Positions 6,434-43,109 of a DNA stretch of 45,176 nt are shown here, one piece after another. The stretch's first letter is position 1. Each line of letters opens with the position of its first letter. A program made the translations under genes and the position numbers. Origin of the DNA: a virus; IMG/VR virus record IMGVR_UViG_3300043788_000151, positions 1 through 45,176 of that record. The stretch is one strand, 5' to 3'. The notes under the pieces were generated by a model, which worked only from the letters and a program-made list of their open reading frames with translations, made no database searches and was not told where the DNA came from.

Positions 6434-6464
6434 CATGTAGAGTGTTCGTAGAACACATGTAGGA

Positions 6465-19516: not shown

Positions 19517-20958
19517 AAGATCATCTCCTTCGCGTTTTTCACGAACGCTGCATAGTCAGTCTGTTTCGAGTACAGGTAAGCCAGAGCCTGTGTGGTAGCG
19601 TCGACCACATCGTCGTTTTTTCCGAAAGGAAACGAGAGCATTTCTTCCTGAGCCGGACCCTCCCACGCATGCAATTCCGGGTCCGGATGCAGGACACTTC
19701 CGGATTCGTACAGCGGGGTAATGGCGTTAGCTCGGGACTCCTTACCCCCCAGCGGGTTGACCGGGACGATGCCAGGAACCTTCTTCTGAAGGACCTCGAT
19801 AACCGCCGTGCCGTTCGCCTTATCCTCCACCAGGATCGTCATGGCTTGGGGGTAGCGCCCGCGCATGGCGAGAATCTGGGCGCAAGTCTCTTCGAAGCCC
19901 CAGTGACCTCGTGCCTGATCGATCTTGTAGAACTTGCCGCCTGTCATACCCCATACCTGTCCTACCACGTAGTCGGAACCGTCGGTATCTTTGAAGGCGC
20001 AGTCCCACGACTGAACCAGCGTCATGCCGGAAGTGGGCAGCGTCTTCCACGTCTGAAACCATTGCCTCTTGAAAATGGCGCCTTCGGCGGGGCTAGGGCG
20101 TTGCTGCAACTGAGCCGCCGTACCTCTAGAACCCAGGTTCGTCTCCAGCTCTTTTACGGCACTCTCGGGCATGCGATCCGGACACAGCAACTCGCCGTCT
20201 TGTGTCCTAGGATCACCGATAGAGAAAGCCGTCTTCTCGAAACGCATCGGTAAGCGAAGGTGCTCGAAGTCCCCGCCGCGCAGCACCTCGCCGGACAGAT
20301 CATCTTCGTGAAGCCGCTGCATGATGATGACCTTGGCGGCTCTGGACGCGTCCCTGAACCTGGTGGGGACCGTCTCGTGCCACCAGTCGTTCACCTGTTG
20401 CAATGTGGTCTTAGAGATAGTGAGGGGTTTGACCGGATCATCCACCACGAAATCGTGGCAGTGCCTACCCGTCACGGGACCTCTCACGGACGTGGAGTAA
20501 CGAAAGCCGCCCGACATGTTCTGAAAATCTGTTACGGGCTGGTCCGCTTTCATGACGAACTTGCCCGGCCAGAGAGCCTTGTACCACTCCGACTCCAGGA
20601 TCAGTAGGGTCTTGCGCGCGTCCCTGGTGGTGAGTTTGATATCGTAACTGGCGGAAATCTTACACGTACCCGGACCGTAGGGTCTTGAGCCGTTCTTGCC
20701 GGGGTCGAGGGTCCACTCCCACGCCGGCCAAAACACCTGGACAAGAATCGACTTGGAGAACGACGGGGGGATGTTGATCAGTAGGTTGCGGATCTGTCCT
20801 TCCGTTACGGCCTGGAGCCTTTCGCAAATCAGGTCTATGTGCCAAGAGGACTTGTATTGTTGGGAAGGTTCGACAATTGGCCAAGCCTCCTTCACGAAGG
20901 CTCTTAGCCTGTATCGGCGGATGTATTCGAAAGCCAAGCCCCTCTGAATCTCGTTCAT
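19513..20958 (-). CDS. terL: Terminase large subunit
   Basis: The 481-residue packaging motor has the full two-domain layout. The ATPase domain has N-I-P-P-S-F-S-K-S (62-70), a degenerate Walker A of the PPxxxKS type, and F-V-V-D-D (170-174) as Walker B. The RNase H-like nuclease domain has Q-S-W-D-C-A-F-K-D near residue 317 and V-E-D-K-A-N-G later on. It pumps DNA into proheads and cuts concatemers. Its start overlaps the sigma-factor gene stop (ATGA). No portal gene follows, contrary to the common order, and the small subunit is distant. Confidence 0.95.
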   Translation of the reverse strand: MNEIQRGLAFEYIRRYRLRAFVKEAWPIVEPSQQYKSSWHIDLICERLQAVTEGQIRNLLINIPPSFSKSILVQVFWPAWEWTLDPGKNGSRPYGPGTCKISASYDIKLTTRDARKTLLILESEWYKALWPGKFVMKADQPVTDFQNMSGGFRYSTSVRGPVTGRHCHDFVVDDPVKPLTISKTTLQQVNDWWHETVPTRFRDASRAAKVIIMQRLHEDDLSGEVLRGGDFEHLRLPMRFEKTAFSIGDPRTQDGELLCPDRMPESAVKELETNLGSRGTAAQLQQRPSPAEGAIFKRQWFQTWKTLPTSGMTLVQSWDCAFKDTDGSDYVVGQVWGMTGGKFYKIDQARGHWGFEETCAQILAMRGRYPQAMTILVEDKANGTAVIEVLQKKVPGIVPVNPLGGKESRANAITPLYESGSVLHPDPELHAWEGPAQEEMLSFPFGKNDDVVDATTQALAYLYSKQTDYAAFVKNAKEMIF

Positions 20959-21671
20959 AACAAGTTTCCCAACGACACCCGAAGAACAACTAGCCCCTTG
21001 TCGTGAAGTTCCTGAGCCTGTTTTTTGGTGATGCCCAGACTCTTCGCCACGGATCGAACGGATGGTGCATCCTCGCTATACAGGCGCACGATAACGTCCC
21101 TAACGGGCGGCTCCAAGCCGGACAGCGCCAACAGGATCCGGCTCTTCTGTTGCCTGTCGGACAGGATGGTTTCGGGGTCACCCTCACACCCTAGGGAGTC
21201 CTCGTGCGCCTCCTCCAATCTCGGAGTGGCGCGCGCCCAGACGTCCCACAGGCGTTCACTCACGCCTAGCAGCTCGGCGGTAGGTTCCACGCCCTGTGCT
21301 CGGAGGACGATCGCCTTGCTCTGCATCTTCCAAGGCATAGTGGAAGCTATCGGTTTTCGGACCACAGGATTCCTCTCCGCCAACTTGCCGATTTCGGATC
21401 TGATATAGAACGCCAACAGCGTAGACACCTGGCGATTCGGATCGATGAAGTCCAGTCGCTCGAAAAGACGCATCACCCCGACGTAACCCGCTTGGAGAAG
21501 ATCCTCCTTGTCGATGCTATCAGGAAGGTGTTTGCTGTACTTCAACACCAACTTCCTGATCAAGCGGTCGTTCGCCTTGATCATCTTGCCAGCCCACATC
21601 GCGGCTAGCTTTTTATTGCCCTTCTTCGAAGCCTTCTTGTACTGCTCAAAATCCGAAATTGTGAATGCCAT
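20955..21671 (-). CDS. Sigma-70-family sigma factor
   Basis: The 238-residue protein has a recognisable sigma region 2 at about residues 36-95: L-I-R-K-L-V-L-K-Y-S, then D-K-E-D-L-L-Q-A-G-Y-V-G-V-M-R-L-F-E-R-L-D, and T-L-L-A-F-Y-I-R-S-E-I. A region 4-like helix-turn-helix follows at about 183-232: L-S-G-L-E-P-P-V-R-D-V-I, then S-V-A-K-S-L-G-I-T-K-K-Q-A. It probably directs host RNA polymerase to a class of phage promoters. ATG at 21671 is just after the upstream stop and follows AGGGA. The gene lies directly before the large terminase. Confidence 0.8.
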   Translation of the reverse strand: MAFTISDFEQYKKASKKGNKKLAAMWAGKMIKANDRLIRKLVLKYSKHLPDSIDKEDLLQAGYVGVMRLFERLDFIDPNRQVSTLLAFYIRSEIGKLAERNPVVRKPIASTMPWKMQSKAIVLRAQGVEPTAELLGVSERLWDVWARATPRLEEAHEDSLGCEGDPETILSDRQQKSRILLALSGLEPPVRDVIVRLYSEDAPSVRSVAKSLGITKKQAQELHDKGLVVLRVSLGNLL

Positions 21672-21678
21672 GTCCCTA

Positions 21679-22419
21679 TTAGGACACAAGCACCCCTTCA
21701 ATCACACACTTCCCGTCAATGATGGGTACTAGCTGGATGTGCGTGGTACCGTTCGGTTCGCTGTATCCGACGCCGAACGCGTGTTGCCACGAACGAGTCA
21801 CTTTGGCAGGCTCCAGGTACTGGATCGCTTTCACGGACCCTAGCCAACCGCACTGCACAGCCACATGGCTTTTACCCTTGGCGTTGCCGGTGTAGCTAAG
21901 CGCTGCGTGGTGGGTATGCCCGATACAGACCGACTCTTGGAACACCTCACCGCTCCTAATGTGAGCGTAGGGACCTAGCGCCCCGGTGTCGTGCGTATAG
22001 TTCACGCGTCCGATCTTGATATGGTCTCCGTACTTGACGTGAGACCAGCCGCGTTCCTTGAGACGAAGGACCTTCGGGATAGTGAGTGTATCGTACAGGG
22101 ACAGAGCTTGGCGCTTCAACAGGTTCGCTAAACGCGCCTCGTGGTTGCCTTCGATGAACACCTTGTGTTTCGCACCCAAGGCGTCTACCTCATCCAGCCG
22201 CTCATTCACCTTCATCATCTCGAAATCGAATTGGACGGCGGCTTCGCTGGGTTTCTTGTCGAAGCCTGAGCACGACAAGAAATCGCCGAAGTCCCCCAGG
22301 ACGATGATCCTGTCGGGCTTGAACCTCTTGCCCGCCTTCAACATCAGGTCGAAAGCTTCGGGGTCCTCAAACGGGATGTGACAGTCCGGGACGATGAGCG
22401 TTCGTTCTAGGCGCTTCAC
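21679..22419 (-). CDS. Calcineurin-like metallophosphoesterase
   Basis: The 246-residue product has the metallophosphoesterase metal ligands: P-D-C-H-I-P-F, V-L-G-D-F-G-D-F, F-I-E-G-N-H-E-A-R (the GNHE block) and C-I-G-H-T-H-H-A. Phage enzymes of this type include nucleotide and RNA phosphatases and nuclease subunits. GTG at 22419 is chosen because it overlaps the preceding stop (GTGA); the frame is open further upstream but would overlap the previous gene by 100 bases. Confidence 0.85.
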   Translation of the reverse strand: MKRLERTLIVPDCHIPFEDPEAFDLMLKAGKRFKPDRIIVLGDFGDFLSCSGFDKKPSEAAVQFDFEMMKVNERLDEVDALGAKHKVFIEGNHEARLANLLKRQALSLYDTLTIPKVLRLKERGWSHVKYGDHIKIGRVNYTHDTGALGPYAHIRSGEVFQESVCIGHTHHAALSYTGNAKGKSHVAVQCGWLGSVKAIQYLEPAKVTRSWQHAFGVGYSEPNGTTHIQLVPIIDGKCVIEGVLVS

Positions 22420-31322: not shown

Positions 31323-31467
31323 GTGGCGAATAGAAGCAAGATATTAGCCACACGATTGAGATGAACAGCGCAGCGGCTTTGAAAAAAGGCTTCTCCTCCA
31401 GCATCGACACGACCAACCATCCCGTGGTGGCTGAACACGTGGCATAGAGGTGTGGCGAGGGCTTCAT
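31315..31467 (-). CDS. 50-residue membrane protein
   Basis: A 51-codon frame fills the gap between the nuclease and helicase genes, with ATG one base after the upstream stop. The product has two hydrophobic stretches, around residues 15-22 and 30-46 (A-A-L-F-I-S-I-V-W-L-I-S-C-F), separated by E-E-K. It looks like a small membrane protein. There is no clear ribosome-binding site, so coupling to the nuclease gene is assumed. Confidence 0.5.
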   Translation of the reverse strand: MKPSPHLYATCSATTGWLVVSMLEEKPFFKAAALFISIVWLISCFYSPRE

Positions 31468-31468
31468 T

Positions 31469-32665
31469 TCAACCACACGTACGGATCACGATGTCCGCGA
31501 TAGATGACAGGTAGTTCAGCGCGATCTGAGCCTCTGGCGTGGAGGGGTAGGTCACGACCAACAGGGCTGTGTGCTCAGCAGCTTCCACGACTTGCTTGAT
31601 TGCCTGGAGAAGTGCCGCGGGTCCTTTGCCATAGGGCACCTGGCGGTAATCGGTCACCAGGCTCCCCTGATCATCCTTCAGCTTCGTAGCGGTCACGATC
31701 GCGCAAGCCTTCGTGAGCACCTGTTCGAAACGAACCGCCTTCTTCCCGCTTGGCTCACACCCCACGAACAGCCAGCCGATCAAGGGTTTGGTTGTTGGCG
31801 CCGTGGACTTGGCGATAGGAGTTTCGGCTTGCGTCGGAGGTTCAGGCTTGAACTCCGGAGGGTCTTGGACGGGAGGAATCGGAGGGGCGGGTTGCGTGTC
31901 GTGCACGGGAGGCGGGTTGATTGCTTGTCGCTTGGACAGGCGCGTGAGAAGGCTATCGGTGCTTGTGGTTGACATGATGCTCCTAAGGGTATCTTCGGCT
32001 GTTAGGTTGCAATGTGAGGCGAACGGACACAACGTGTTGTAGGCACGGCACGCTGTGGCGTTGTACGGCACCTGCAAAGAAGGTACCGTTTTCGTCGCGT
32101 CCATTTCGTCGGCTACACGCTCTGTTTCTTCGAACGCGAGGGCGACGATTTCTCTGGGCAGGTACTGTCGAACGGGCAGGGACTTTCGGGTGCCTCTGGT
32201 TTGCCCGTAGGTCCACTGGACGAACACCCCCGGCGCTTCGGGGTAGTCCACTAGGTACGTGGTGGCGTATAGTATTGCTTGGACGTCGGTTTCTAGGTCC
32301 TTCTTTGCCCACTTCAGATCTGAAGTGGTCTTGTGGTCGTAAACGTGCGTTGGCGTGCGCAAGTCTATCAGACCGTAGTACTTGTGGTTCTTGGACTTGA
32401 GTAGGAACTCTTGTTCCGGGGATGTGACCGGCGACCTTGGCGGAAGGTGCTTCTGTATCTCCGCTGCGATGTAACCGGCTGGTGTGGTGTAGTCCAGCGG
32501 CGCGTTAGACAGGTAATACTCTTCTAGCTGCCGATGCACTTCCACCCCAAGGGACTGGCTGGCTGTCTCTTGTTTCGTTACTTCTACTTTGGTCACGTAC
32601 TGCCAGTGCCACCTGCGTGGGCATTGCAGGTATAGCGAAATCTGGCTAGCGCTTTTCCAACTCAC
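31469..32665 (-). CDS. PD-(D/E)XK nuclease with Fe-S-type cysteines (RecB/Cas4-like)
   Basis: The 398-residue protein starts S-A-S-Q-I-S-L-Y-L-Q-C-P-R-R-W, as in RecB/Cas4-type nucleases, and has G-L-I-D-L...Y-D-H-K-T-T (catalytic Asp and the D-x-K pair) and a Q-A-I-L-Y-A helix. Cys15 plus three later Cys (A-C-R-A-Y-N-T-L-C-P-F-A-S-H-C, near 206-220) fit the four-Cys iron-sulfur arrangement of this group. A Pro-rich linker (about 245-290) leads to an unrecognised C-terminal domain of about 100 residues. It probably acts in phage recombination. The start is GTG (GTGA overlap). Confidence 0.8.
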   Translation of the reverse strand: MSWKSASQISLYLQCPRRWHWQYVTKVEVTKQETASQSLGVEVHRQLEEYYLSNAPLDYTTPAGYIAAEIQKHLPPRSPVTSPEQEFLLKSKNHKYYGLIDLRTPTHVYDHKTTSDLKWAKKDLETDVQAILYATTYLVDYPEAPGVFVQWTYGQTRGTRKSLPVRQYLPREIVALAFEETERVADEMDATKTVPSLQVPYNATACRAYNTLCPFASHCNLTAEDTLRSIMSTTSTDSLLTRLSKRQAINPPPVHDTQPAPPIPPVQDPPEFKPEPPTQAETPIAKSTAPTTKPLIGWLFVGCEPSGKKAVRFEQVLTKACAIVTATKLKDDQGSLVTDYRQVPYGKGPAALLQAIKQVVEAAEHTALLVVTYPSTPEAQIALNYLSSIADIVIRTCG

Positions 32666-32970
32666 TTTCTACGCCTGCATTCTACGCAGGTTCCGTCGCT
32701 CGCGTATCTTTTTCGGGTTAGACATCTTTTGCAAGGCTTTTTTGACTCTAAGAACTTCGTGACTTTTCGAGTAACATGCGTTTGGGTGAAGGTCAACGAC
32801 CGACTAATCTCCGCCGCACGATCCAAGTAGAAACGCTCAACAGTCTTCTTATCTTCTGCGCTAAGCCAGTCAGGCTCTGCCGTGGACATCAGGGGTAGCG
32901 GGTACCCGGCTCTGAAGTACTCTCGTCCGAGTTTCGATGCCTCTGAAAATATTTCTAGGACCTCAATCAT
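32662..32970 (-). CDS. Small protein with C-terminal zinc ribbon
   Basis: The 102-residue product has a helical N terminus and a C-terminal C-K-R-C...C-V-E-C-R-R-R-K zinc ribbon. That ribbon resembles the one at the start of the endonuclease VII-like protein at 28136-29023. The central part, with A-E-I-S-R-S-L-T-F-T-Q-T-H-V-T-R-K-V, could be a helix-turn-helix. It may bind DNA next to the primase-helicase. ATG overlaps the primase stop (ATGA). Confidence 0.6.
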   Translation of the reverse strand: MIEVLEIFSEASKLGREYFRAGYPLPLMSTAEPDWLSAEDKKTVERFYLDRAAEISRSLTFTQTHVTRKVTKFLESKKPCKRCLTRKRYASDGTCVECRRRK

Positions 32971-35192
32971 TTATCGAATTTTCGCAGTCTAAGTTCAGCT
33001 TCAGATGGTTGCAATTCCCGTACCCAAGGCTCCAAGATCCACATGTGTTCCGTTCTACCTGAAACTTTGCGCGTGCTAGGGCGAGCCAACCTTCTAAGGG
33101 ACTGGTTGATTCTGGTCGCCTTACGGTTATCAAACCGGTCCAGACTCCCCGGCTCGGAGCTTCCAATGCGCGCCTGCCACACCTCTTGCGCGTTTTTCAC
33201 GAAGTCTTTCCCAGCGCAGTATTGAAGTATCGTCTCGTGCCACTCGGAAACACTCTCAAACTTCTTTTGGTGATCCTCTAAGACCTCGGCATCTTCGAAC
33301 CAGTGCTCGAAAGTTCGGTCGAACGCCAACAGATAAGCGTTCGCCCACAGCGCGTCGCGAAGCTTACGTGTTGCGTGAATGTCAATGTCCTCGCGAATCT
33401 CCACAGGCAACCAACGTCGAGCCCCTGAAGGGTCTTTCAGGATGTCCGGTTCGTTCGTGGTGCCTACGAAGATGCAGGATCGCGGACGTTCTATTTTCTG
33501 CCCAGTGCCAAACTGGCGATACGCCTCAGTCCGACGCGACAAGAAAGCCTTGATCGAAGTGTCTTTATGGGTCGCCATGACCCGATCCAGCTCCTCAAAC
33601 TCAATGCCCCAATAACCCTCCAAGGCATGACTAGCGTCTCGCCCCTCCAATGAAGGCATCTGGGCTCGGTACCAAGGCTGGAACATCGCTTCAATCCAAG
33701 AAGATTTGAACCGCCCTTGACGAATGCTGTAGAGTACAAGCATCGTGTCGCACTTGCAACCAGGTCTGTAGATTCGCCTCACGGCAGCCACCAAGGACTT
33801 TTCTACGAAGTCTTTCTCTAGCTCGGTAGAAAGCTTCATGACCTCTTCGCAGTACTTCCGGATGGTGCCGTGTGTCCCTGGCGGGAGTTCTTCGAGGTAC
33901 TCTTTCACCGAGTGAAATTCGAATTGTTGCGCGGCATTTTCTATCGCCTTGTAGCAGTCCTCGTGAGACACCTTGAAACCCTTGTACGCGAACCAGCAAC
34001 GCAAGGAAGTGACGTCACTGTCCCTGAGCCCGTTACCATCTGAGGCTCGCAGCGGCACGGGAGGGTCTGTACAAATCAACTTGTCCGCGAAGACATCGTA
34101 AGAAAACACTCCTCCCCAATCCTCGCCAAGGACAAGCTGGTTCACAACATCGTTCATTGAGAGAGGCGCCAACTTCCCTGATTGAGCTGGCAAGTATGAC
34201 GTTAGAGTTGGCGCATAGTTCGGCGAATGTTTACGACGTTTGAGTTGACCATCTTCTGGCATTGATTTGCAAGGCGGCGGAATGATCGGAAACACCTCGT
34301 TCAACTTTTCCGAAGCACGGGGGCACAGTTCCCTGAGCGTTCGAAACGCGGTCACGGCTCCTCCGGAAAGTCTGTTCACCACGGTGTCCCTAGCAGCTCG
34401 GCGTTTCGTGTCGAGCTTCGCGAACCCCGCGACCCTAGAGGCTTCGAAAACGAATTCCGGGATCGCGGTGTGAGGCATACCGACCAGATCGAACAACGCT
34501 CCGGCAAGTGCCATGGCAGCGAAATGCCTCGAACCCTTCGGCACTTTCGCTAACTCCCTTCCGACACAATCCGCTTTTGGTTCTAGGTCAGTTCGTAAAC
34601 CTTCATCGAACAACACTTCCGACTTGCCACCAAGAACCGGCAATCGGGGGACCTCAGAGGCAGTCGCCAACAGCGCATCGAAATCGTTGGTCCCTGGAAT
34701 CACCTCGAACACGCAACCGCGCACCGGAACGAACCAGCCCCTGTTGGGATTCGACGACTCCGGACCAACCGAGGGAAGCAACCCCGCCACGTGTCGCCAG
34801 AGCTTCCGGTGCTCATCCACCGACAACGGACGACAAGGTAGGATAACCCGCCAGCGATCCACAGCCCCGTCCGACTCGAAGCCAGGCTTTACTTTCTGGT
34901 GGTAGTAGGACGATGTAATGATTCCTGATAGCTTGTGAGCTTCCAGGGCGGCTTTCAGCGAGGTGAAGGTGGGTGTAGGAACCTTATCCACATCGAAGCA
35001 CAGTGCCGACACGCTCACTACATTGGAGACTTCTTTCCCTCCCCCGTCGAACGATGCCGGCGACCACAGCGGCAGCTCATCCTTGGGCGTGACCGGGCTT
35101 TGCAGCTCGTCCCTGAGAAACGACGCCAAATTATCTACGAAGTGGGGATGAGCAACAGAGGACTCCTTGTTTATAAAAAGAGAGATATTCAT
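32967..35192 (-). CDS. Primase-helicase with VirE-like ATPase domain
   Basis: The 741-residue product joins an archaeo-eukaryotic primase-like N-terminal part (C-F-D-V-D-K at 65-70, then S-S-Y-Y-H-Q, then W-R-V-I-L-P) to a virulence-associated E-type ATPase. The latter is seen in a P-loop-like Q-G-R-F-K-S-S, E-L-D-R-V-M, and F-V-G-T-T-N-E-P followed by G-A-R-R-W-L-P-V. It likely primes and unwinds DNA for the intein-bearing polymerase. It is the first gene of the long leftward block, and its ATG lies only 13 bases after a sigma-54-type -12 box, so its mRNA should have almost no leader. Confidence 0.85.
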   Translation of the reverse strand: MNISLFINKESSVAHPHFVDNLASFLRDELQSPVTPKDELPLWSPASFDGGGKEVSNVVSVSALCFDVDKVPTPTFTSLKAALEAHKLSGIITSSYYHQKVKPGFESDGAVDRWRVILPCRPLSVDEHRKLWRHVAGLLPSVGPESSNPNRGWFVPVRGCVFEVIPGTNDFDALLATASEVPRLPVLGGKSEVLFDEGLRTDLEPKADCVGRELAKVPKGSRHFAAMALAGALFDLVGMPHTAIPEFVFEASRVAGFAKLDTKRRAARDTVVNRLSGGAVTAFRTLRELCPRASEKLNEVFPIIPPPCKSMPEDGQLKRRKHSPNYAPTLTSYLPAQSGKLAPLSMNDVVNQLVLGEDWGGVFSYDVFADKLICTDPPVPLRASDGNGLRDSDVTSLRCWFAYKGFKVSHEDCYKAIENAAQQFEFHSVKEYLEELPPGTHGTIRKYCEEVMKLSTELEKDFVEKSLVAAVRRIYRPGCKCDTMLVLYSIRQGRFKSSWIEAMFQPWYRAQMPSLEGRDASHALEGYWGIEFEELDRVMATHKDTSIKAFLSRRTEAYRQFGTGQKIERPRSCIFVGTTNEPDILKDPSGARRWLPVEIREDIDIHATRKLRDALWANAYLLAFDRTFEHWFEDAEVLEDHQKKFESVSEWHETILQYCAGKDFVKNAQEVWQARIGSSEPGSLDRFDNRKATRINQSLRRLARPSTRKVSGRTEHMWILEPWVRELQPSEAELRLRKFDK

Positions 35193-35205
35193 GACCCGTT
35201 CTATA

Positions 35206-35220
35206 GCAATACTCGTGCCA
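35206..35220 (-). promoter_or_regulatory. Sigma-54-type -24/-12 promoter for the leftward block
   Basis: On the minus strand TGGCACG (35220-35214), four bases, then TTGC (35209-35206) match the sigma-54 consensus perfectly, with GG and GC at the correct 12-base distance. The start should be near 35194, two bases before the ATG of the primase-helicase at 35192. The element is one of three with nearly the same geometry. No ribosome-binding site would be on the transcript. Confidence 0.75.
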
Positions 35221-35231
35221 GTGAGGCTAAG

Positions 35232-35258
35232 TATCCGGTTTATCCGGGGAATATCCGG
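35232..35258. repeat. Three TATCCGG repeats
   Basis: TATCCGG occurs at 35232, 35241 and 35252, and the last copy lies in the palindrome ATCCGGAT. They lie just upstream of the leftward sigma-54-type promoter and about 220-230 bases upstream of the rightward one. Repeats of this kind in such a hub may bind an activator or repressor, but this is inference. Confidence 0.45.
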
Positions 35259-35311
35259 ATCGTATCAGACCCCTAACTATATGAAAATCTTGGCGAATCA
35301 GGGTATCCTAT

Positions 35312-35330
35312 TTCTTCTTCTTCTTCTTCT
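35312..35330 (+). repeat. TTC triplet run
   Basis: Six consecutive TTC units form a polypyrimidine tract just ahead of the 100-base repeat. The first bases of the window (CTTCTTCT) look like the end of a similar run before copy 1. Triplet runs vary in length by slippage and could alter spacing between control elements. Confidence 0.7.
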
Positions 35331-35422
35331 AAGGAAATACGTAGTACTAAAGGGGGATAATCAGGCACCGATGTCCCCGTATTGGACCTCGATTGCCTGA
35401 TGTGTATGATTTCATTAGGATC
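35323..35422 (+). repeat. Regulatory repeat, copy 2 (matches 1-99)
   Basis: These 100 bases equal bases 1-99 except for one extra C (run at 35375-35378). The palindromic arms are at 35360-35367 and 35394-35401. It lies in the 288-base hub 35193-35480 between divergent promoters, which otherwise holds the TATCCGG repeats, the TTC run and the two sigma-54-type elements. Similarity stops abruptly after AGGATC in both copies. Confidence 0.85.
35382..35410 (+). promoter_or_regulatory. Sigma-70-like promoter in repeat copy 2
   Basis: TTGGAC (35382-35387) and TATGAT (35405-35410), 17 bases apart, form the same predicted promoter as in copy 1. It would start near 35417 and give the 35481 gene a leader of about 60 bases, unlike the sigma-54-type promoter downstream. 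The capsid operon may thus have two promoters of different classes. The -35 box is inside the palindrome. Confidence 0.5.
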
Positions 35423-35452
35423 GCATTCTAGGAACGCCCGGAGTATCGGAGC

Positions 35453-35467
35453 TGGCACGCGGTTTGC
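35453..35467 (+). promoter_or_regulatory. Sigma-54-type -24/-12 promoter for the capsid operon
   Basis: TGGCACG (35453-35459), four bases, then TTGC (35464-35467) followed by AA match the sigma-54 consensus perfectly. Predicted transcription starts near 35479, two bases before the ATG at 35481, exactly as at the leftward promoter. The distance from the -12 box to the ATG is 13 bases in both cases. Confidence 0.75.
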
Positions 35468-35480
35468 AATACTTTTTACT

Positions 35481-35705
35481 ATGAAAAACACCACCCCTGT
35501 TCTCGTTTCTATGAAAACCGATGATGTAAAAAACCTTGAAGCCCTTTCCCGTCGCTATTTCGGCGAAGGGAAAGTCTATAAGACCAAGACCGTTCGGGAA
35601 GCCCTCGCTAGGTGCGCCGAAGCCGAGCTAGGCATTGCCAGGCTGAAGACGGACGTGTCCTCCCAAACTGTAAGCTTGGAAAGTGATGAGAGTCCTACGA
35701 CATGA
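35481..35705 (+). CDS. Small ribbon-helix-helix-like protein
   Basis: The 74-residue product begins M-K-N-T-T-P-V-L-V-S-M and has a short basic strand followed by helices (D-V-K-N-L-E-A-L-S-R-R-Y-F, then K-T-V-R-E-A-L-A-R-C-A-E-A-E-L). This resembles ribbon-helix-helix DNA-binding proteins. It is the first gene of the capsid operon, next to the palindromes of the hub, so an autoregulatory role is plausible. The ATG has no Shine-Dalgarno and lies 13 bases after the -12 box; an alternative ATG at 35511 has none either. The last 20 bases overlap the next gene. Confidence 0.6.
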   Translation: MKNTTPVLVSMKTDDVKNLEALSRRYFGEGKVYKTKTVREALARCAEAELGIARLKTDVSSQTVSLESDESPTT

Positions 35706-36810
35706 CGTAGCCAAGCTAAGCAAGGCTACGCCTACGCCGCAAGGCGGTATTCAAATCCCAGCGACCCTAACCCGTACTGGAATCCTCGAGTACAGGAACC
35801 AAGACGGTTCGGTTCGGCGCGAACTTCGATTACCTGAGGAGGTCTTTTCGAAGGAACACCTGGACAGCCTGAAGGGGGCGACGGTCACGGTAGGGCACCC
35901 GGGAGCCGTCACCCCTGAAAACTTCAAAACGCACGCTGTAGGTCACGTGCGCGACGACGTTGGCAGGGACGGCGGGCTGATTACCGCGAACGTGATGGTC
36001 CAAGACGCTGCGACCATTGCGATGATTCAGGACGAATCGCAGAAGGGTCTTCGTGAGATTTCGTTGGGTTATTCCGTGGAGTTGGACCCTACGCCGGGAG
36101 TTTGGCAGGGACAGCGCTACGACGCAGTTCAGCGACGGCTGGTGACGAACCACGTAGCGCTTGGTCCGGAGGGTTGGGGGCGTTGCGGATCCGAAGTTGG
36201 TTTGCGACTTGATTCCGGCGATGCGGTGTCGGATCTCGGCGCCGTAAACTACGATGGTATGGATCCTAACATCGAAAAACTCACCGCAGAACTTGCCGCC
36301 GTCAAGGGTGAGAACACGGCACTCAAGGGCGAAAACGCCGCGCTGAAATCGCGTGCGGATTCTTTGGCTGGCGAAAACGAGGTTCTGAAGACTCGCGTGG
36401 ACAGCGCTGTGAGTCCGGACAAGCTCGATTCGCTGGTGGAAAAGCGCGTAACGCTGGTTCAGGATGCGAAGAAGATCCTGGGCGCGGAGTACGACGCGAA
36501 GGGTAAGAGCGACATCGAAATCGTGAAAGCCGCGCTGGCGAAGGAACTGCCGAAGTTCAAGCAAGACTGTAGCGACGACAAGCTTCGCGGTGCTTTCGAT
36601 GCCGTGGTTGCGGGGCTGAAGGACGGCGAGGAGAAGGTTGCCAAGCGCTTGACCGTGGTGAACGCGGACGGTGCCGGCGAGCCTCAGGTCACGAAGGTTG
36701 AGAAGCGGCGCGCCAAGTTCGAACAGGATTCGATCAACGCCTGGAAGCAAGACTCCGCGGTCCCGACTGGTCGTGTTGTGCAGACTGCATTGAACGCGAG
36801 GGCGGTGTAA
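35686..36810 (+). CDS. Capsid maturation protease/scaffold (DUF2213-like)
   Basis: The 374-residue product has the DUF2213 N terminus: a T-R-T-G-I-L-E-Y segment, R-E-L-R-L-P-E-E-V-F-S, V-T-V-G-H-P and then G-Y-S-V-E-L-D-P. A coiled-coil region near residues 200-245 (repeats of E-N-T-A-L-K-G-E-N-A-A-L-K) suggests a scaffold part. In related phages this gene lies just upstream of the cement and major capsid genes, as here. ATG at 35686 is preferred; GTG at 35683 would add one residue. Confidence 0.75.
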   Translation: MRVLRHDVAKLSKATPTPQGGIQIPATLTRTGILEYRNQDGSVRRELRLPEEVFSKEHLDSLKGATVTVGHPGAVTPENFKTHAVGHVRDDVGRDGGLITANVMVQDAATIAMIQDESQKGLREISLGYSVELDPTPGVWQGQRYDAVQRRLVTNHVALGPEGWGRCGSEVGLRLDSGDAVSDLGAVNYDGMDPNIEKLTAELAAVKGENTALKGENAALKSRADSLAGENEVLKTRVDSAVSPDKLDSLVEKRVTLVQDAKKILGAEYDAKGKSDIEIVKAALAKELPKFKQDCSDDKLRGAFDAVVAGLKDGEEKVAKRLTVVNADGAGEPQVTKVEKRRAKFEQDSINAWKQDSAVPTGRVVQTALNARAV

Positions 36811-36812
36811 TC

Positions 36813-37376
36813 ATGGGTGGTCAGACTTCAGTTAATCTCACGACGAGCATCGCGGTTCCGGGGCAACTCGCTGATGAGAACCTTGATGACAAGATCGTTT
36901 CGTACCCCGCGGGCGAGGCAATTGAGTTTGGTCGCTTGTGCGAAGTTTCGAGCAACGGACAGATTTTCAAGGTCCGCGGCTCAGGTTCGACCATCGCCGC
37001 TTTCCAGGGCGTGGTCGGTGTTTCGGTGTTCGACGTCGCGCGAGAGCAGCAACTGGCGGCTACGGGTGGTTCGGCGGGCTCGGGTAACTATCAGTCCGGC
37101 GACATGGTTCCGGTCCTCCGGAAGGGTCGCATCTTCGGGGCTTGGGACGGTTCCGGTAGCCAGAGTGTTTTCGGCACCCCGGCTGTGAACCATCCCTCCA
37201 CGTCAGACCCCTCGGACCTTCGTGGCGTATTCTCGAACGGCTCGGTCACCACTACGGCAGGCTCGGAGATTACGGCTCTTCCGGCTTCGTACCTCGAGAT
37301 CAAAGACGTCTCCACCAAAACCAACTCGGGCGACCCTCTGGTCTGCCTTCTTGAGCTGAATTTGCCGGGTGTATAG
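36813..37376 (+). CDS. Capsid cement-like protein
   Basis: The 187-residue product is beta-rich. It starts M-G-G-Q-T-S-V-N-L and has F-Q-G-V-V-G-V-S-V-F-D and a V-L-R-K-G-R-I segment, the pattern of DUF2190-type head-decoration proteins that occupy this slot between protease/scaffold and capsid genes. A related pattern occurs in the product of 42409-42972. The spacer TAATCATG, with the upstream stop two bases before the ATG, recurs before the major capsid gene. Confidence 0.65.
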   Translation: MGGQTSVNLTTSIAVPGQLADENLDDKIVSYPAGEAIEFGRLCEVSSNGQIFKVRGSGSTIAAFQGVVGVSVFDVAREQQLAATGGSAGSGNYQSGDMVPVLRKGRIFGAWDGSGSQSVFGTPAVNHPSTSDPSDLRGVFSNGSVTTTAGSEITALPASYLEIKDVSTKTNSGDPLVCLLELNLPGV

Positions 37377-37385
37377 AAAACTCGG

Positions 37386-37820
37386 ATGCGTAGAGGAGAA
37401 GCCGAGCGTTTGAAGTCTTTGGATCCGGCAGCCTATGCCGAATATCGTAGACGGAGAAACGCATCTACTCGCAAATGCGCCGCTTCACGAAAGGCGAGAG
37501 GGTTGCCCGGTTATGGCAACAGTGTCGACCAGAGGAAGTGGCATCTGCAAAAAACCTACGGTCTTAGCTTAGAGCTCTTTCAACAGATGTTTGAGAATCA
37601 AGAGGGGCTGTGCGGTGTGTGCGGTTGTTTGATGAACAACGCAAAGCTTGTCAGCAACTCGAAGTGTTGTGTTGACCACTGTCATAACACCGGTGTTGTG
37701 AGGGGTCTTGTTTGCCATGCTTGTAATAAGGGCATGGGCGCGTTGAAGGATGATCCTTGGATTCTTCAGGGCGCTGTAAACTTCCTTCAGACCCCTATGC
37801 CCTCTTATTCAGAGAACTAA
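37386..37820 (+). CDS. Endonuclease VII-like homing endonuclease
   Basis: The 144-residue product has a basic helical start and an endonuclease VII core: C-G-V-C-G-C (about 76-81), C-C-V-D-H-C-H (catalytic DH) and G-L-V-C-H-A-C-N-K-G. It separates the cement and major capsid genes, which are adjacent in relatives. It is most simply a free-standing homing nuclease that inserted there. Insertion between essential genes protects the element from loss. Confidence 0.85.
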   Translation: MRRGEAERLKSLDPAAYAEYRRRRNASTRKCAASRKARGLPGYGNSVDQRKWHLQKTYGLSLELFQQMFENQEGLCGVCGCLMNNAKLVSNSKCCVDHCHNTGVVRGLVCHACNKGMGALKDDPWILQGAVNFLQTPMPSYSEN

Positions 37821-37822
37821 TC

Positions 37823-38926
37823 ATGATTTATCGCAATACAGGTGCTTTTGCTGCCGCGGCTGGCGTGCCCCTCTTCCGCTTCGACGGGGACTTTGAGTTC
37901 TCAGTTCGGTCGGGTTTGGAGCAAATCACGGGTAAGCGCGCGGACGCGAATGAGACGGCGTTCTTCGCTCGTGAGCTGGAGTACGTCTACACCCAGACGT
38001 ACGACATCAAGTACCCGAACCTAAAGGCTCGCCAGCTCTTCCCGGTCGAGACGCGAGTTCCCCCGGGCGCGGACAGCTTCACCTACTCGCAGTTCGATAA
38101 GAAGGTCGAGGCGGAAATCGTCCACAATTACGCCCAAGACTTCCAGAACGCCGAGGTGATGGGTAAGCAGTTCAAGCAGGGCGTGGTCTCTGTCGGCGAC
38201 TCTTACCAGTACTCGATTCAGGATCTCCGTGCAGCTGCCATGGCTGGACGTCCGCTGGAGACGATGAAGGCTGAGGTGGCTCGCTGGGGCATCGACTACA
38301 AGCTCGAAAACCTCGCGGCGATTGGTGATGTGAACACCGGACTTACCGGCATCTTCAACACGCCGTCGTTGGTCGCTACCACGAAGGTTTCGCAGAACAA
38401 CGCAGGGTCCACGACGGTTACTTGGGCGGCACTCATCAGCGATGCGCTCGCCAAGGGCAATCTCACGGCGGCTGTCCAAGAGATTCTCAAAGACGTCTCC
38501 GCCATGTCCCGACAGATTTCGGTTCAGTCCGACGGTCTGTTCATGGGCGACACTCTCGTCCTTCCGGTCGCTTCGTACTTCCTCTTGGCGAATACGCAGC
38601 GCGCGCCGGGCTTCACGGATGACACGATCCTTCAGTACATCCTAAAGACGGTCCCCGGACTTCGCAGCATCGAGTTCTGGCCTCAGGCGAACGCGGTTGC
38701 TTCGTCGGTGCTCTCGGGCGCTGGCGGCAACGGCGTGGCTCTGATGTACCAGAAGACCCCGGACGTTGTTCAGCTCGTCATCCCCCAGGAATTCGAGCAA
38801 TTCGCTCCGCAACCCCGCAACATGAGCTGGATCATCCCCTGCCACATGCGAACGGGCGCTATCACGGTCCGCTACCCGATCGCAATGACTTATATGCTTG
38901 GTACGATCACAGCCTCGGGTGGCTGA
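37823..38926 (+). CDS. Major capsid protein (DUF2184-like)
   Basis: The 367-residue product matches DUF2184 major capsid proteins. It has an E-L-E-Y-V-Y-T-Q-T-Y-D-I-K-Y-P-N segment, V-P-P-G-A-D-S-F-T-Y, a long central helix around M-A-G-R-P-L-E-T-M-K-A-E-V-A-R-W, and a C-terminal M-R-T-G-A-I-T-V-R-Y-P-I-A-M-T strand. ATG at 37823 follows TAATC, as at the cement gene. A strong terminator follows. Confidence 0.9.
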   Translation: MIYRNTGAFAAAAGVPLFRFDGDFEFSVRSGLEQITGKRADANETAFFARELEYVYTQTYDIKYPNLKARQLFPVETRVPPGADSFTYSQFDKKVEAEIVHNYAQDFQNAEVMGKQFKQGVVSVGDSYQYSIQDLRAAAMAGRPLETMKAEVARWGIDYKLENLAAIGDVNTGLTGIFNTPSLVATTKVSQNNAGSTTVTWAALISDALAKGNLTAAVQEILKDVSAMSRQISVQSDGLFMGDTLVLPVASYFLLANTQRAPGFTDDTILQYILKTVPGLRSIEFWPQANAVASSVLSGAGGNGVALMYQKTPDVVQLVIPQEFEQFAPQPRNMSWIIPCHMRTGAITVRYPIAMTYMLGTITASGG

Positions 38927-38950
38927 AAAAGGTCTCCCTAAAAGAGAGAA

Positions 38951-38983
38951 AAAGCCGGGACTAAAAAACCCGGCTTTCTTTTT
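38951..38983 (+). terminator. Rho-independent terminator after the capsid gene
   Basis: AAAGCCGGG (38951-38959) pairs with CCCGGCTTT (38969-38977) around a nine-base A-rich loop and is followed by TTTCTTTTT. It ends the capsid operon 24 bases after the stop. Its T-tract runs directly into the next sigma-54-type element, so end and start of two transcripts overlap. Confidence 0.95.
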
Positions 38984-38997
38984 GGCACGTGTCTTGC
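38983..38997 (+). promoter_or_regulatory. Sigma-54-type -24/-12 promoter for the lysis-tail operon
   Basis: TGGCACG (38983-38989), four bases, then TTGC (38994-38997) followed by TT match the sigma-54 consensus perfectly. The predicted start is about 39009, three bases before the ATG at 39012. It lies between a terminator and the first gene of a new operon, the expected place for a promoter, which makes chance an unlikely explanation. Confidence 0.8.
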
Positions 38998-39011
38998 TTC
39001 GTAAAGAACTC

Positions 39012-39155
39012 ATGACCAGGGATGAGTTCATCAAACAAGCCACGATGCAGTTTGCCGCGTCCCTTCTTTTGATGGGGACTTACGATACCGCCAAGGCTCG
39101 TAAACTTGCTTACGAGCTTGCGGCTACGTTCGATTGGAAGGAAAAGACGAAATGA
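39012..39155 (+). CDS. 47-residue hypothetical protein
   Basis: This short helical protein (M-T-R-D-E-F-I-K-Q, ending F-D-W-K-E-K-T-K) is not recognised. Its ATG lies 14 bases after the -12 box of the preceding promoter and has no Shine-Dalgarno, so the mRNA would be nearly leaderless. Its stop overlaps the next start (ATGA). Being first behind the promoter, it may serve to load ribosomes on the operon. Confidence 0.6.
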   Translation: MTRDEFIKQATMQFAASLLLMGTYDTAKARKLAYELAATFDWKEKTK

Positions 39156-39388
39156 AACCGGGTCTTAGTCTTACGGCATCCCATCACGATTCGGACGATG
39201 AGGACGAAGGCGATGATGTGAGGAAACAGGCGGCGCATGCGCACACCATGTCCCACCACGCTTTGGAGATGGGTGAGCCCGGTGCGCACAAGGCGGCAGC
39301 CGACGCCCATAAGAAGCTTGCCAAGATGCACACGGAGAAGGCTCACGACCTGGTAGACGAAGATGATGACGAAGACGAGGATGATTGA
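39152..39388 (+). CDS. Acidic and histidine-rich protein
   Basis: The 78-residue product is unusual in composition. Runs of Asp/Glu occur at both ends (D-S-D-D-E-D-E-G-D-D and E-D-D-D-E-D-E-D-D), with a His/Ala/Lys-rich centre (H-A-H-T-M-S-H-H-A-L and A-D-A-H-K-K-L-A-K-M-H). It could bind metal ions or mimic DNA, but nothing confirms either. ATG at 39152 overlaps the previous stop (ATGA). Confidence 0.6.
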   Translation: MKPGLSLTASHHDSDDEDEGDDVRKQAAHAHTMSHHALEMGEPGAHKAAADAHKKLAKMHTEKAHDLVDEDDDEDEDD

Positions 39389-39530
39389 TCTGTTCCTAGC
39401 TCTTTTCCTGTTTTCATGTGGTGGTAGAATTTACACCAGCCCGCATCTTCACGTAGGCGTCCGTCCCGCCTTCGAGTACCCCAACGGCTACGCTCTTACC
39501 GTTCAAATCAGCACCGACCGCTTACCGTAA
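39381..39530 (+). CDS. 49-residue lipoprotein, spanin-like
   Basis: A 50-codon frame overlaps the end of the acidic protein gene and stops ten bases before the lysozyme. The product starts M-I-D-L-F-L-A-L-F-L-F-S-C-G-G, a lipoprotein signal with Cys13, and has a short mature part with aromatic and Pro residues. Short lipoproteins beside an endolysin are often outer-membrane spanins, so a lysis role is a good guess. No inner-membrane spanin partner is obvious nearby. Confidence 0.55.
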   Translation: MIDLFLALFLFSCGGRIYTSPHLHVGVRPAFEYPNGYALTVQISTDRLP

Positions 39531-39539
39531 GCTTCTTAC

Positions 39540-40280
39540 ATGGGTCTTGTCGCAGGCATCGACGTAAGCAGCATCCAGAACTCCGCCTACGCTCATAAAG
39601 GCTCAGGTCCCGGCACTCTCCCCTGGGGCGCGTTGCAGCTCAGGGGCGTGAAGTTCGCCTACCTCCGGTGTGGTGTTGGTAACGATGCCCCGGACGCGTG
39701 CTTTCAAAAGAACGTCCTAGACGGTAAGCCGTCCATGGCGTTGGGCGCCTACCATTTCGTCTATCCTTTGCCGCACATCGACCCTAGGGACCAAGCTAAC
39801 AAGTTCATCGATCTGTGTGGCGGGCACTTGACCCTACCTACGATGCTGGACTTGGAGTGGCCTCTCTCGAGTCTTTTCACGAAGTGGGGTTGCACGTCCG
39901 AACAGATCCTCGACTGGACTCTTGCGTGTTTGGATCAGTACTCCAGCCAGACGAAGCGAAAGGCTGGACTCTACACGTACCCTTCTTTCTGGCAGGGGCT
40001 CGGCGGTGCTGCCAGGACGGAGTTTTCGCAGTACCCTCTCTGGTGCGCCAGCTACGTGAACAGCGGTATCTGCCCCTTCCCTAAGGACACCGATGTCCCG
40101 CCCCATAACTGGGCTCCGTGGGCTGGCTGGACCGTGTGGCAATACACGGGCGGGGGGGTGACGATGCCTGGTGGTGTTCCGTGTGACGGCGATGTGATGC
40201 AGCAAGAGACCCTAGACGAGCTTAGCTTAGACTATCTTAGGTCCCCACTAAAAGGAAATTCGGATTCTCATGCTGCGTAA
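39540..40280 (+). CDS. GH25 lysozyme (endolysin)
   Basis: The 246-residue product is a glycoside hydrolase family 25 muramidase. It has G-I-D-V-S-S (Asp8), Y-H-F-V-Y, M-L-D-L-E-W (Asp104, Glu106), A-G-L-Y-T-Y-P-S-F-W and V-W-Q-Y-T-G-G-G. It cleaves the glycan strands of peptidoglycan at the end of infection. No signal peptide is visible, so a holin would be needed. The end overlaps the tail chaperone gene by 11 bases. Confidence 0.9.
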   Translation: MGLVAGIDVSSIQNSAYAHKGSGPGTLPWGALQLRGVKFAYLRCGVGNDAPDACFQKNVLDGKPSMALGAYHFVYPLPHIDPRDQANKFIDLCGGHLTLPTMLDLEWPLSSLFTKWGCTSEQILDWTLACLDQYSSQTKRKAGLYTYPSFWQGLGGAARTEFSQYPLWCASYVNSGICPFPKDTDVPPHNWAPWAGWTVWQYTGGGVTMPGGVPCDGDVMQQETLDELSLDYLRSPLKGNSDSHAA

Positions 40281-40689
40281 AAGCGAGTCTAAGGTTATTG
40301 GTGAGTACACATACAACGTGACCCAGCTAGGAGCAGTCACGGGCTCTAAGGTGTTCCTTCGGGTGTTGAAGGTTCTTGGTCCGCTGGTTGGCGCCAAGGA
40401 CGTAGGGGCGCTGTTCGATAGGCTCAAGGAAGAGGACTTCACCTACCTCTGCGAAGAGTTTGCGAAGATGTCCACGGTCCAACTCGAGAAAGGAGCACCC
40501 CAGCTCAACGCAATTTTCGATGTGCACTTCGCAGGTAAGTACGGCGAACTTATCGAGTGGCTTCGGTTCTGTATCGAGGTCAACTTCGGCGAGGTGCTCA
40601 AAGGCGACGTCCTAAAAAGCGTAGGGCGCAAAGCGGCGGCGTCCGAATCGACTGGCCCGAGTCCGCTGACTGGAATGTCTGGCGGGTGA
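40270..40689 (+). CDS. Tail assembly chaperone, short form
   Basis: The 139-residue product begins M-L-R-K-S-E-S-K-V-I-G-E-Y-T-Y-N-V-T-Q-L and has V-F-L-R-V-L-K-V-L-G-P, like myophage tail assembly chaperones encoded before the tape measure. Its last 25 residues are low in complexity. A second frame, shifted by minus one, overlaps this end and continues to the tape measure, as expected for the frameshift-made long form of such chaperones. Confidence 0.7.
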   Translation: MLRKSESKVIGEYTYNVTQLGAVTGSKVFLRVLKVLGPLVGAKDVGALFDRLKEEDFTYLCEEFAKMSTVQLEKGAPQLNAIFDVHFAGKYGELIEWLRFCIEVNFGEVLKGDVLKSVGRKAAASESTGPSPLTGMSGG

Positions 40690-40829
40690 TGACGTCCGGT
40701 AAGTTCAGCGTGTCGGCTCAAGAGCTGGAGACCTTCTGGTCCTTCGAAGGGCTCATGTCCGCGCATCAAGTTCTCAACGCTCTTGAGGATGCAGAGGCTC
40801 GCGCACGAAGAGAGGCTCAGAAGAAGTAA
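40617..40829 (+). CDS. Tail assembly chaperone, minus-one frameshift extension
   Basis: The frame at minus one relative to the chaperone encodes D-W-P-E-S-A-D-W-N-V-W-R-V-M-T-S-G and a helical end. This matches small proteins usually encoded after the chaperone (a W-x-x-W-R-x-V-x-x-G pattern, DUF6889-like). The likely slip site is the A-run at 40614-40618, read as A-AAA-AGC in the zero frame. A GTG at 40686, overlapping the chaperone stop, could start it separately but would lose the conserved W-N-V-W-R segment. Confidence 0.6.
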   Translation, partial: KRRAQSGGVRIDWPESADWNVWRVMTSGKFSVSAQELETFWSFEGLMSAHQVLNALEDAEARARREAQKK

Positions 40830-42409
40830 TGTCCGCGCTCCGGGAGCTCATAGCCACGTTCGGCGTGGAGGTAGACGAGAAGCCCCTAGAGCATTTGGAA
40901 GGGTCTATCGAGAGCTTCAAAGAATCCGTGAAGGGCGTGGCGGAAGTGGTCGCCGAGGCTTTCGCCCTCAAGGAGCTATCCGAATTTGTGCTAGGCACCG
41001 TCGAAGCCGCCGCACACACGCAAGACCTGTCCGAACAGCTAGGTATCGGAACCGACGAGCTTCAGAAGTTCGCTTTTGCTGCCAAGCTCGGAGGTGTGGA
41101 CGCCGAGAGCGCCGCGCACTCTTTGGGTCTCTTCCAGCGCACGATCGGTGAAGCTACGAGCGGTAGTAAGGAAGCCGCCGAGAAGTTCGCCAAGCTGCAC
41201 ATCTCCCTGAAGGACACTGGTGGAGGAACGAAAGACACCCTCGAGTTGCTAGGCGATGTGGCTGACAAGCTGAAGGACACGGACCCTCAAAAGCGCGCGG
41301 CGATAGCGATGCAGCTATTCGGTCGATCCGGACTCGCCATGATCCCGGTCCTGAAAGAGGGTAAGGAGGGGGTAGAGGATCTCTACAAGGAATTTGACGA
41401 GCTGGGCGGAGGGATGTCCAAGGAATTCGTGGAGAACGCGAAAAAAGCCGATGACCAAATGGTCAAGCTGAAGTTCTCTTTTGACTCAATCAAAGCGAAG
41501 ATCGTTGCCGCTGTGCTCCCGACCTTGACGATGCTGGTCAATGGTGTGAAGCCTATCGTGAAATGGTTCGGTGAAGTGGTGACGAAGACCCACGCCGTGG
41601 CGCACGCTATCGACACCTTGAAGATCCTGGCTATCGTAGGTGCGATGACGAAGGTAGTTACGGTCCTGAAGGCAATCGCAGCGGGCGAAGCTTTGGTGGA
41701 TCTGCTAGATCCTTTTACTCAGATGGTCATCGCCATTGGCGTGCTTTATCTGGCGGTAGACGATTTCCTTACCCTGATGGAGGGTGGCAACAGCGTAATC
41801 GGCGATCTGCTAGGACCGGATAAGCAGGCATTCGTAGATTCGCTCCGTGAGTCTTTCGATGCACTGAAAAAAGCGTGGGAGGAGTCCAAGCCCCAGATCG
41901 TCGAGTTGGGGAAAGAGCTGGAAGGTGCGCTGAAGAGTGCTGCCACGGAGTACATCCCCGAGATCCTGAAGAACCTTCCTGGCATGATCAAAGGCTTCCA
42001 AGACGTGGTGGAGGTGATCCGAGACGCCGTTGCGCTCATTGTCAAGTTCAGGGACTTCAGCTACAGCCTAGTCGGTGCCGGACCTCAGAGTGATGGACAA
42101 CAGCAGGCACAAGACATCATCAAGAATGCCAACCCTCTGAACAGCCTGCTAGGTTTGGTCACGCCTAGTACGGTAGCGGATCCTTCACTGCCTTCGGGTA
42201 CGCCAAGTCTGCCTCCTAACTTGAACGGCGGAGATACTAGCCACAGCGTAAGTCAGGAAAACCACTTCGGGGACATCAACATCTACTCGGGCGGAAAAGC
42301 GGACGGCTCTAGCTCCGGAAAAGAGACGGGTCGAGCTGTGGGACAGGGGATTACCGATAAGCTGCAACTCAGCATGCAGTCGGCACTGATAGCCTTGAAG
42401 AGGGCATAG
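40829..42409 (+). CDS. Tape measure protein
   Basis: The 526-residue product has a long helical N-terminal part with tape-measure features: L-S-E-Q-L-G-I-G-T-D-E-L-Q-K-F-A, then A-A-I-A-M-Q-L-F-G-R-S-G and S-F-D-S-I-K-A-K-I-V-A-A-V. It then has a hydrophobic segment at about 255-320 and a Ser/Gly-rich end. It is short for the family, suggesting a short tail (length scales with the tape). ATG overlaps the preceding stop (TAATG). Confidence 0.85.
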   Translation: MSALRELIATFGVEVDEKPLEHLEGSIESFKESVKGVAEVVAEAFALKELSEFVLGTVEAAAHTQDLSEQLGIGTDELQKFAFAAKLGGVDAESAAHSLGLFQRTIGEATSGSKEAAEKFAKLHISLKDTGGGTKDTLELLGDVADKLKDTDPQKRAAIAMQLFGRSGLAMIPVLKEGKEGVEDLYKEFDELGGGMSKEFVENAKKADDQMVKLKFSFDSIKAKIVAAVLPTLTMLVNGVKPIVKWFGEVVTKTHAVAHAIDTLKILAIVGAMTKVVTVLKAIAAGEALVDLLDPFTQMVIAIGVLYLAVDDFLTLMEGGNSVIGDLLGPDKQAFVDSLRESFDALKKAWEESKPQIVELGKELEGALKSAATEYIPEILKNLPGMIKGFQDVVEVIRDAVALIVKFRDFSYSLVGAGPQSDGQQQAQDIIKNANPLNSLLGLVTPSTVADPSLPSGTPSLPPNLNGGDTSHSVSQENHFGDINIYSGGKADGSSSGKETGRAVGQGITDKLQLSMQSALIALKRA

Positions 42410-42972
42410 TGTATAACGGCTCGTACCCCGGGATGTTGTGGGACTGGGCAAATTACAACCCCAGGTTCCCCATCCAACAGTCGAACGACCTTCGCATGAT
42501 CTCGTGCGTGGCGAGCGAGCTCATCCAGCCAGGCAACTTGGTGCAAGTCGTGCCAGGGTCCTCGGGCGGTACGGTTCTGGTACGGAACGCCAGGGACGCT
42601 ACGGCGCTGGTAGGTATCGCGACCCTAGACCCCTTCCGATACAACCCCCAGACTTGGACTTGGGCTCAGTACACCGTACTGCCGGTGTGCAGGCGCGGGC
42701 GGGTGTATTGCTCGTTTCAGGGAGCGAACGCGCCGGGCATCGGACAACCAGCCGCGTTCTACTCGGGAGGGGCGTTGACGTCCGACGAAGCCGGCATCCT
42801 GGTGCCTAACGGACGTGCGTGTTTCGGCACGGCGGCAGATCCGTATTACGACAACCAAGACGCTACGTTGTGGGGTGCGGCAGACACGATACCCTCACCT
42901 GCGCCCAACCCCGTAGGTGTGAGCGACACTCTGTTCGGCTTTGGTTGCGCCCTGGTCGAGATGAACCTCTAG
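42409..42972 (+). CDS. Beta-rich structural protein, cement-like
   Basis: The 187-residue product is rich in Gly and aromatic residues. It carries I-Q-P-G-N-L-V-Q-V-V-P-G-S-S-G-G-T-V, A-L-V-G-I-A-T-L-D and a V-C-R-R-G-R-V strand, close to the pattern of the capsid cement-like protein at 36813-37376. Its place between tape measure and Dit-like genes instead suggests a tail component. The start is GTG in a TAGTG overlap. Confidence 0.5.
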   Translation: MYNGSYPGMLWDWANYNPRFPIQQSNDLRMISCVASELIQPGNLVQVVPGSSGGTVLVRNARDATALVGIATLDPFRYNPQTWTWAQYTVLPVCRRGRVYCSFQGANAPGIGQPAAFYSGGALTSDEAGILVPNGRACFGTAADPYYDNQDATLWGAADTIPSPAPNPVGVSDTLFGFGCALVEMNL

Positions 42973-42983
42973 GTTCAGGGTCT

Positions 42984-43070: not shown

Positions 43071-43109
43071 ATCATATTCTACGGCTTCCGCTACGTAAAC
43101 TTAAGGGCA

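Follow-up and report, generated by a model that had tools for sequence, protein, structure and literature searches.

IMG/VR virus record IMGVR_UViG_3300043788_000151, analysed here over its full 45,176 bases (the window), is the sequence of an uncultured tailed phage, and it raises the question of which promoters start the main gene blocks of this phage and how the resulting messages are read. Three short sequences in the window resemble the promoters of bacterial sigma-54, and each lies 13 or 14 bases before an ATG. With good confidence, we regard these sites as genuine sigma-54 promoters, because all 11 conserved bases are matched three times where about 0.03 perfect copies are expected, the scores against a matrix of known sites are high, and the sites are placed at unit starts:

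35206..35220, minus strand: site 1, a sigma-54-type -24/-12 promoter, TGGCACGAGTATTGC; the ATG of the replication unit (35192) follows after 13 bases.
35453..35467, plus strand: site 2, a sigma-54-type promoter, TGGCACGCGGTTTGC; the ATG of the head-gene unit (35481) follows after 13 bases.
38983..38997, plus strand: site 3, a sigma-54-type promoter, TGGCACGTGTCTTGC; the ATG of the lysozyme/tail unit (39012) follows after 14 bases.

An exact search of both strands for TGGCACG-N4-TTGC returned exactly these three copies in the window, in agreement with an earlier note on this DNA, which had placed the motif at the same positions and strands and had found no further perfect copy. Under a first-order Markov model, 0.028 copies are expected in the window, and the Poisson probability of at least three is 3.4e-6. 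When the GG-N10-GC core is sought with at least 8 of 11 matches, sites 1–3 are the only ones in the window to reach 11/11; all three are intergenic, and each is upstream of, and points at, a gene start. The four variable bases are not alike among the three sites, which are thus not a recent copy of one sequence. Against a matrix derived from 29 intergenic Salmonella sites for sigma-54 (PMC3844500; training median 19.5), sites 1 and 2 score 21.3 and 19.1, the top two values in the window, where simulated sequence of the same size has a mean maximum of 12.7 and a highest value of 17.6. Site 3 scores 15.0 and ranks fourth, with one in-gene place above it, because the bases that follow its TTGC (TTC) are less typical. 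The agreement of the phage sites with bacterial sigma-54 (RpoN, SigL) promoters such as those of glnA, pspA, nif and flagellar genes extends to all 11 conserved bases and their spacing, and the matrix scores of real Salmonella sites are equalled by sites 1 and 2; the identification with the sigma-54 consensus made in the earlier note is therefore well supported by the sequence. Unlike the bacterial promoters, the phage sites appear to head main operons, have the ATG 13–14 bases after the -12 box, and occur in a record without an activator gene of the usual domain.

The gene map places the sites at the heads of the blocks. Minus-strand genes run from 35192 down to 1759, with replication functions first, followed by a DNA polymerase with an intein, a sigma-70-family factor, the terminase and tail genes; plus-strand genes span 35481-45072 and 135-1776. 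The divergent blocks are separated by a gap of 288 base pairs (bp), and sites 1 and 2 lie back to back at its two ends. The features that bear on these placements are:

32967..35192, minus strand: VapE/primase-helicase, 741 residues, first gene behind site 1, heading the minus-strand unit that runs to 1759.
35481..35705, plus strand: 74-residue protein with no assigned function, first gene behind site 2.
38951..38982, plus strand: terminator-like hairpin, AAAGCCGGG/CCCGGCTTT with a T-run, behind the major-capsid gene and ending directly at site 3.
39012..39155, plus strand: 47-residue protein with no assigned function, first gene behind site 3, followed by the GH25 lysozyme and tape-measure/tail genes.

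The claim that each site precedes the first gene of a transcription unit holds, as judged from gene order, for the divergent sites 1 and 2. For site 3 it is likely, since the site comes directly after the terminator-like hairpin, which has a 9-bp GC-rich stem and a T-run (a generic terminator scan with a loop limit of 8 bases did not list it). That the three sites head the three main operons of the phage is a fair reading of the same gene order.

The distance to the start codon bears on how the messages would be translated. The spacer that separates TTGC from ATG measures 13 (35205-35193), 13 (35468-35480) and 14 bases (38998-39011), and our recount leaves the earlier values unchanged. The selection on promoter and start codon as one unit that the earlier note read from this spacing is no more than a suggestion. 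At sigma-54 promoters, the GC of the -12 box occupies -13/-12 and transcription starts 11–13 bases after the -12 C. Gaps of 13, 13 and 14 bases would thus leave leaders of about 1–4 nucleotides, and by geometry alone the predicted 5' ends fall within about 5 nucleotides of the start codon. Pairing with the anti-Shine-Dalgarno sequence reaches at best -0.7, -1.1 and -0.2 kcal/mol at the three ATGs, which bears out the earlier statement that these starts have no Shine-Dalgarno sequence. In-frame alternatives exist at codon 22 of the 35192 gene, codon 11 of the 35481 gene and codons 12-21 of the 39012 gene; no Shine-Dalgarno was found at the three ATGs or at the next in-frame starts checked (duplex energies -1.1 to +1.7 kcal/mol). 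Duplexes of -5 kcal/mol or lower precede 29% of the phage gene starts tested versus 14% of random places, so Shine-Dalgarno sequences are moderately used elsewhere in the phage. Given the promoters, the simplest reading, and a probable one, is that the messages from the three sites are leaderless, because the predicted leaders are short and neither the ATGs nor the later starts carry a Shine-Dalgarno.

We infer the use of sigma-54, the start sites, leaderless translation, the host activator and the enhancer role discussed below from the DNA sequence, and the explanation that we consider likely runs as follows. Host RNA polymerase-sigma-54 would bind sites 1–3 as a closed complex, which a host AAA+ enhancer-binding protein would open; no activator gene with the usual domain is present in the phage, hence the appeal to a host protein. 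Sites 1 and 2 would fire divergently out of the 288-bp gap, transcribing replication genes one way and head genes the other, and from site 3 transcription of the lysozyme and tail genes would resume past the terminator of the capsid gene. With starts 11–13 bases after the -12 C, the three mRNAs would carry the leaders of about 1–4 nucleotides predicted above and be read as leaderless. A repeated element in the divergent gap might serve as enhancer. Two features of the gap are candidates for control elements:

35323..35422, plus strand: 99-100 bp element between the divergent promoters, a direct repeat of window 1-99 with one 1-bp indel.
35232..35260, no strand assigned: three TATCCGG copies and the dyad ATCCGG-N7-CCGGAT, adjoining site 1.

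The 99-bp element holds an imperfect hairpin, ATCAGGCA..TGCCTGAT (35360-35401; DNA fold z -2.8), and its distance to the -24 box is about 30-130 bp at site 2 and 100-200 bp at site 1, positions at which sigma-54 enhancers are often found (about 70-150 bp upstream, PMC3844500). It may be an enhancer, an origin-like element or an artefact of the contig end. An enhancer role is a guess, because the element shares nothing with the region upstream of site 3 and its second copy sits at the contig start (window 1-99). No 8-mers are common to the divergent gap and the region upstream of site 3, and an enhancer shared between the two was rejected on these grounds. No known enhancer motif was identified among the dyads and the 99-bp element of the promoter gap, and the TATCCGG copies with their dyad next to site 1 are a possible protein-binding site. 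The most far-reaching version, in which the replication, head and lysis/tail operons all depend on host sigma-54 with a stress- or nitrogen-type activator, the messages are leaderless, infection is gated by host signalling and the 99-bp hairpin element is the shared enhancer, is in our judgement doubtful.

Sites of this kind recur in other viral sequences. Divergent pairs of perfect boxes 217-247 bp apart, a spacing similar to that of sites 1 and 2, occur in 18 viral contigs (including a few near-duplicates), versus about 0.1 expected by chance (a back-of-envelope estimate), and the whole records of these contigs hold 2-13 copies of TGGCAC-N5-TTGC versus 0-1 in reversed controls per strand. 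On these two counts, perfect sigma-54 boxes in viral intergenic DNA appear to form a real class. In several viral contigs, boxes also stand face to face (TGGCAYR-N4-TTGC, 2-6 bp, inverted copy), forming dyads of 33-38 bp; in contig L354 the dyads recur about every 50 bp, with pairs 2-4 bp apart, and the two boxes of one dyad can hardly be used at once. The positions are:

L354, 4821-4954: face-to-face boxes.
L052, 12539-12706: face-to-face boxes.
L102, 10274: face-to-face boxes.
L233, 640: face-to-face boxes.

Dense clusters in both orientations were also seen, with 13 perfect sigma-54 boxes in about 1 kb of L066 (7749-8719; record G048) and 10 in about 0.7 kb of L065 (219-927; record G047).

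Several observations weigh against the explanation favoured here. First, the activator domain of sigma-54 systems (PF00158) is missing from the window and from the 16 other box-bearing records searched; with neither such a protein nor a recognised enhancer site in the window, activation is left unexplained. Second, the explanation presupposes a host with rpoN. Third, the phage encodes a sigma factor of another family:

20955..21701, minus strand: factor of the sigma-70 family and not a sigma-54 (match to TIGR02937 above the cut-off); the terminase gene lies just downstream.

Another sigma may thus direct part of the programme, and a second transcription programme may exist in this phage; the description of sigma-54 use as phage-wide was too strong. 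The target promoters of this factor were not found. Fourth, the motif is not a family trait at the distances available. The capsid protein matches 47 IMG/VR loci at about 29-42% identity, and the 33 capsid-related records contain one stray TGGCAC-N5-TTGC match in total, so that the search in related phages called for earlier went against the proposal, at large evolutionary distance. These capsid relatives are remote, their hosts may differ, and they are silent on close kin or kin of the same host. No close relatives of the window proteins were found in the collections searched, nor of the primase/helicase or DNA-polymerase proteins in IMG/VR, and MW202816, the closest DNA-polymerase record, has no perfect boxes. 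Fifth, genes in other viruses with sigma-54 boxes mostly have ordinary leaders; in contig L057, for instance, the ATG follows at gaps of 51-53 with a Shine-Dalgarno. Finally, a scan of viral contigs for box-to-ATG gaps of 5-35 gave, among the matches listed, to which all its figures refer, an apparent peak at 13-14 (17/106). In seven of the 17 cases the ATG is part of an inverted sigma-54 box (CATGCCA), and without the inverted boxes the 13-14 class falls to 10/95 versus about 6 expected; a general enrichment of this gap across viruses, not clear from these figures, was therefore rejected.

Against this background, the alternative that survives best accepts the sites as real sigma-54 promoters and makes the genes non-leaderless, either because translation starts further downstream or because longer mRNAs from extra upstream promoters supply the leader. 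We give it a modest share of the probability. Contigs L057 and L063 pair the same boxes with ordinary Shine-Dalgarno leaders, and in-frame starts are available at the later codons listed above; those starts, however, lack a Shine-Dalgarno, and the three gaps agree within one base. As for extra promoters, a sigma-70-type scan of 31000-40000 gave one weak match, below the shuffled-sequence count, and a sigma-70 promoter in the divergent gap was rejected on that result.

That the boxes are read by another factor, such as a phage activator or the sigma-70-family factor, in which case TTGC would belong to an extended -10 element and TGGCACG would be an accessory site, seems to us quite unlikely. 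The phage does encode a sigma-70-family factor, and in sites 1 and 2 the TGC is followed by TATAGA and AATACT (4/6 each), correctly placed for a start at the ATG; the extended -10 motif is moreover found upstream of leaderless mRNAs and leaderless phage genes (PMC4842269). Site 3, however, has TTCGTA (1/6), TGGCACG falls at about -27 to -21 rather than -35 and is left unexplained, and 11/11 conserved bases match the sigma-54 consensus. Slightly less probable still is that the boxes bind sigma-54 as decoys or regulatory sites and are not promoters: dense arrays such as those with 13 and 10 boxes and the face-to-face pairs of L354 might suit such a role, whereas the boxes of the window are single, oriented to a gene start at the same distance, and free of dyads or arrays.

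The short gap of sites 1–3 has cellular parallels and appears to be no general rule. Across 143 genomes from the bacterial class to which Steroidobacteraceae metagenome-assembled genome (MAG) L313 belongs, gaps of 11-14, 17-20 and 32-35 bases have 31, 21 and 34 matches, with far fewer in reversed controls at each of the three classes, so the short gap does not seem specially favoured there. A perfect box stands 12 bases before the ATG of flgA in a Steroidobacteraceae MAG, of flgA in a gammaproteobacterial MAG and of a MotA-like gene in a Sphingomonas MAG; both flgA ATGs begin a signal-peptide-like N-terminus, and two fliK-like genes have a gap of 14 (gene names were given throughout by inspection of the sequence, without a family search). 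These bacterial genes suggest that near-leaderless sigma-54 starts are used by cells. Several of them are divergent from another sigma-54 unit, as are sites 1 and 2; they belong to cellular flagellar clusters, whereas the sites described here serve phage operons.

Leaderless messages have precedents among phages. Lambda cI, when expressed from PRM, has a leaderless mRNA, and in lambda cI and Thermus phage phiYS40 messages start at or next to the AUG, as predicted here, from promoters of the sigma-70 type (extended -10). The leaderless mRNAs of phiYS40, with their extended -10 promoters, appear as cited work in PMC4842269, and leaderless mRNAs occur in several bacteria (PMC5243855, PMC3616915). 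Our search of the open-access literature, outside of which lie subscription papers and preprints, turned up no description of sigma-54-type promoters that drive the operons of a phage. The statement that the arrangement is undescribed thus stands for sigma-54-driven phage operons and fails for leaderless phage mRNAs and for near-leaderless flagellar sigma-54 starts, both of which are known; the novelty apparently lies only in the combination of sigma-54-type promoters with near-leaderless starts for the main operons of a phage.

The remaining features of the window complete the picture. Two further places resemble sigma-54 sites less closely, and two head genes lie downstream of site 2:

31336..31350, minus strand: weak fourth sigma-54 candidate, TGGCTAATATCTTGC (8/11), 13 bases before the GTG start of a 550-residue helicase gene.
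1037-1051, plus strand: weaker sigma-54-like site, TGGCACGTATTTGAC; the ATG at 1082 follows after 30 bases and has a Shine-Dalgarno.
35683-36810, plus strand: prohead protease/DUF2213, after the 74-residue gene.
37757-38926, plus strand: major head protein (major capsid), downstream in the site 2 unit.

The phage is probably a myophage, to judge from its baseplate-J and DUF3383 matches and its GH25 protein. An assignment of the 74-residue protein to the ribbon-helix-helix class was dropped, with no Pfam match and a poor structural model (predicted local distance difference test, pLDDT, 52). Searches of the window with Rfam and for tRNAs found no match. The DNA polymerase A gene (23100-26018, minus strand) contains an intein-like insert with an HNH endonuclease-like domain, and free-standing HNH/endonuclease-VII-like genes lie at 5930-6478 and 28136-29023 (minus strand) and at 37386-37820 and 649-921 (plus strand); the call at 28136-29023 comes from a family match and the other three were made by eye. 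One of these genes sits between head-protein genes.

In the usual view, phages take over the housekeeping sigma factor of the host or bring their own. Sigma-54 needs an ATP-driven activator to start transcription, and for this reason, if the explanation favoured here is true, the life cycle of this phage would be coupled to signalling in the host, for example to envelope stress, nitrogen state or motility. Sigma-54 initiation and leaderless translation would then be joined in one compact promoter-plus-start unit, and the viral contigs suggest that sigma-54 boxes in phages are commoner than the literature shows.

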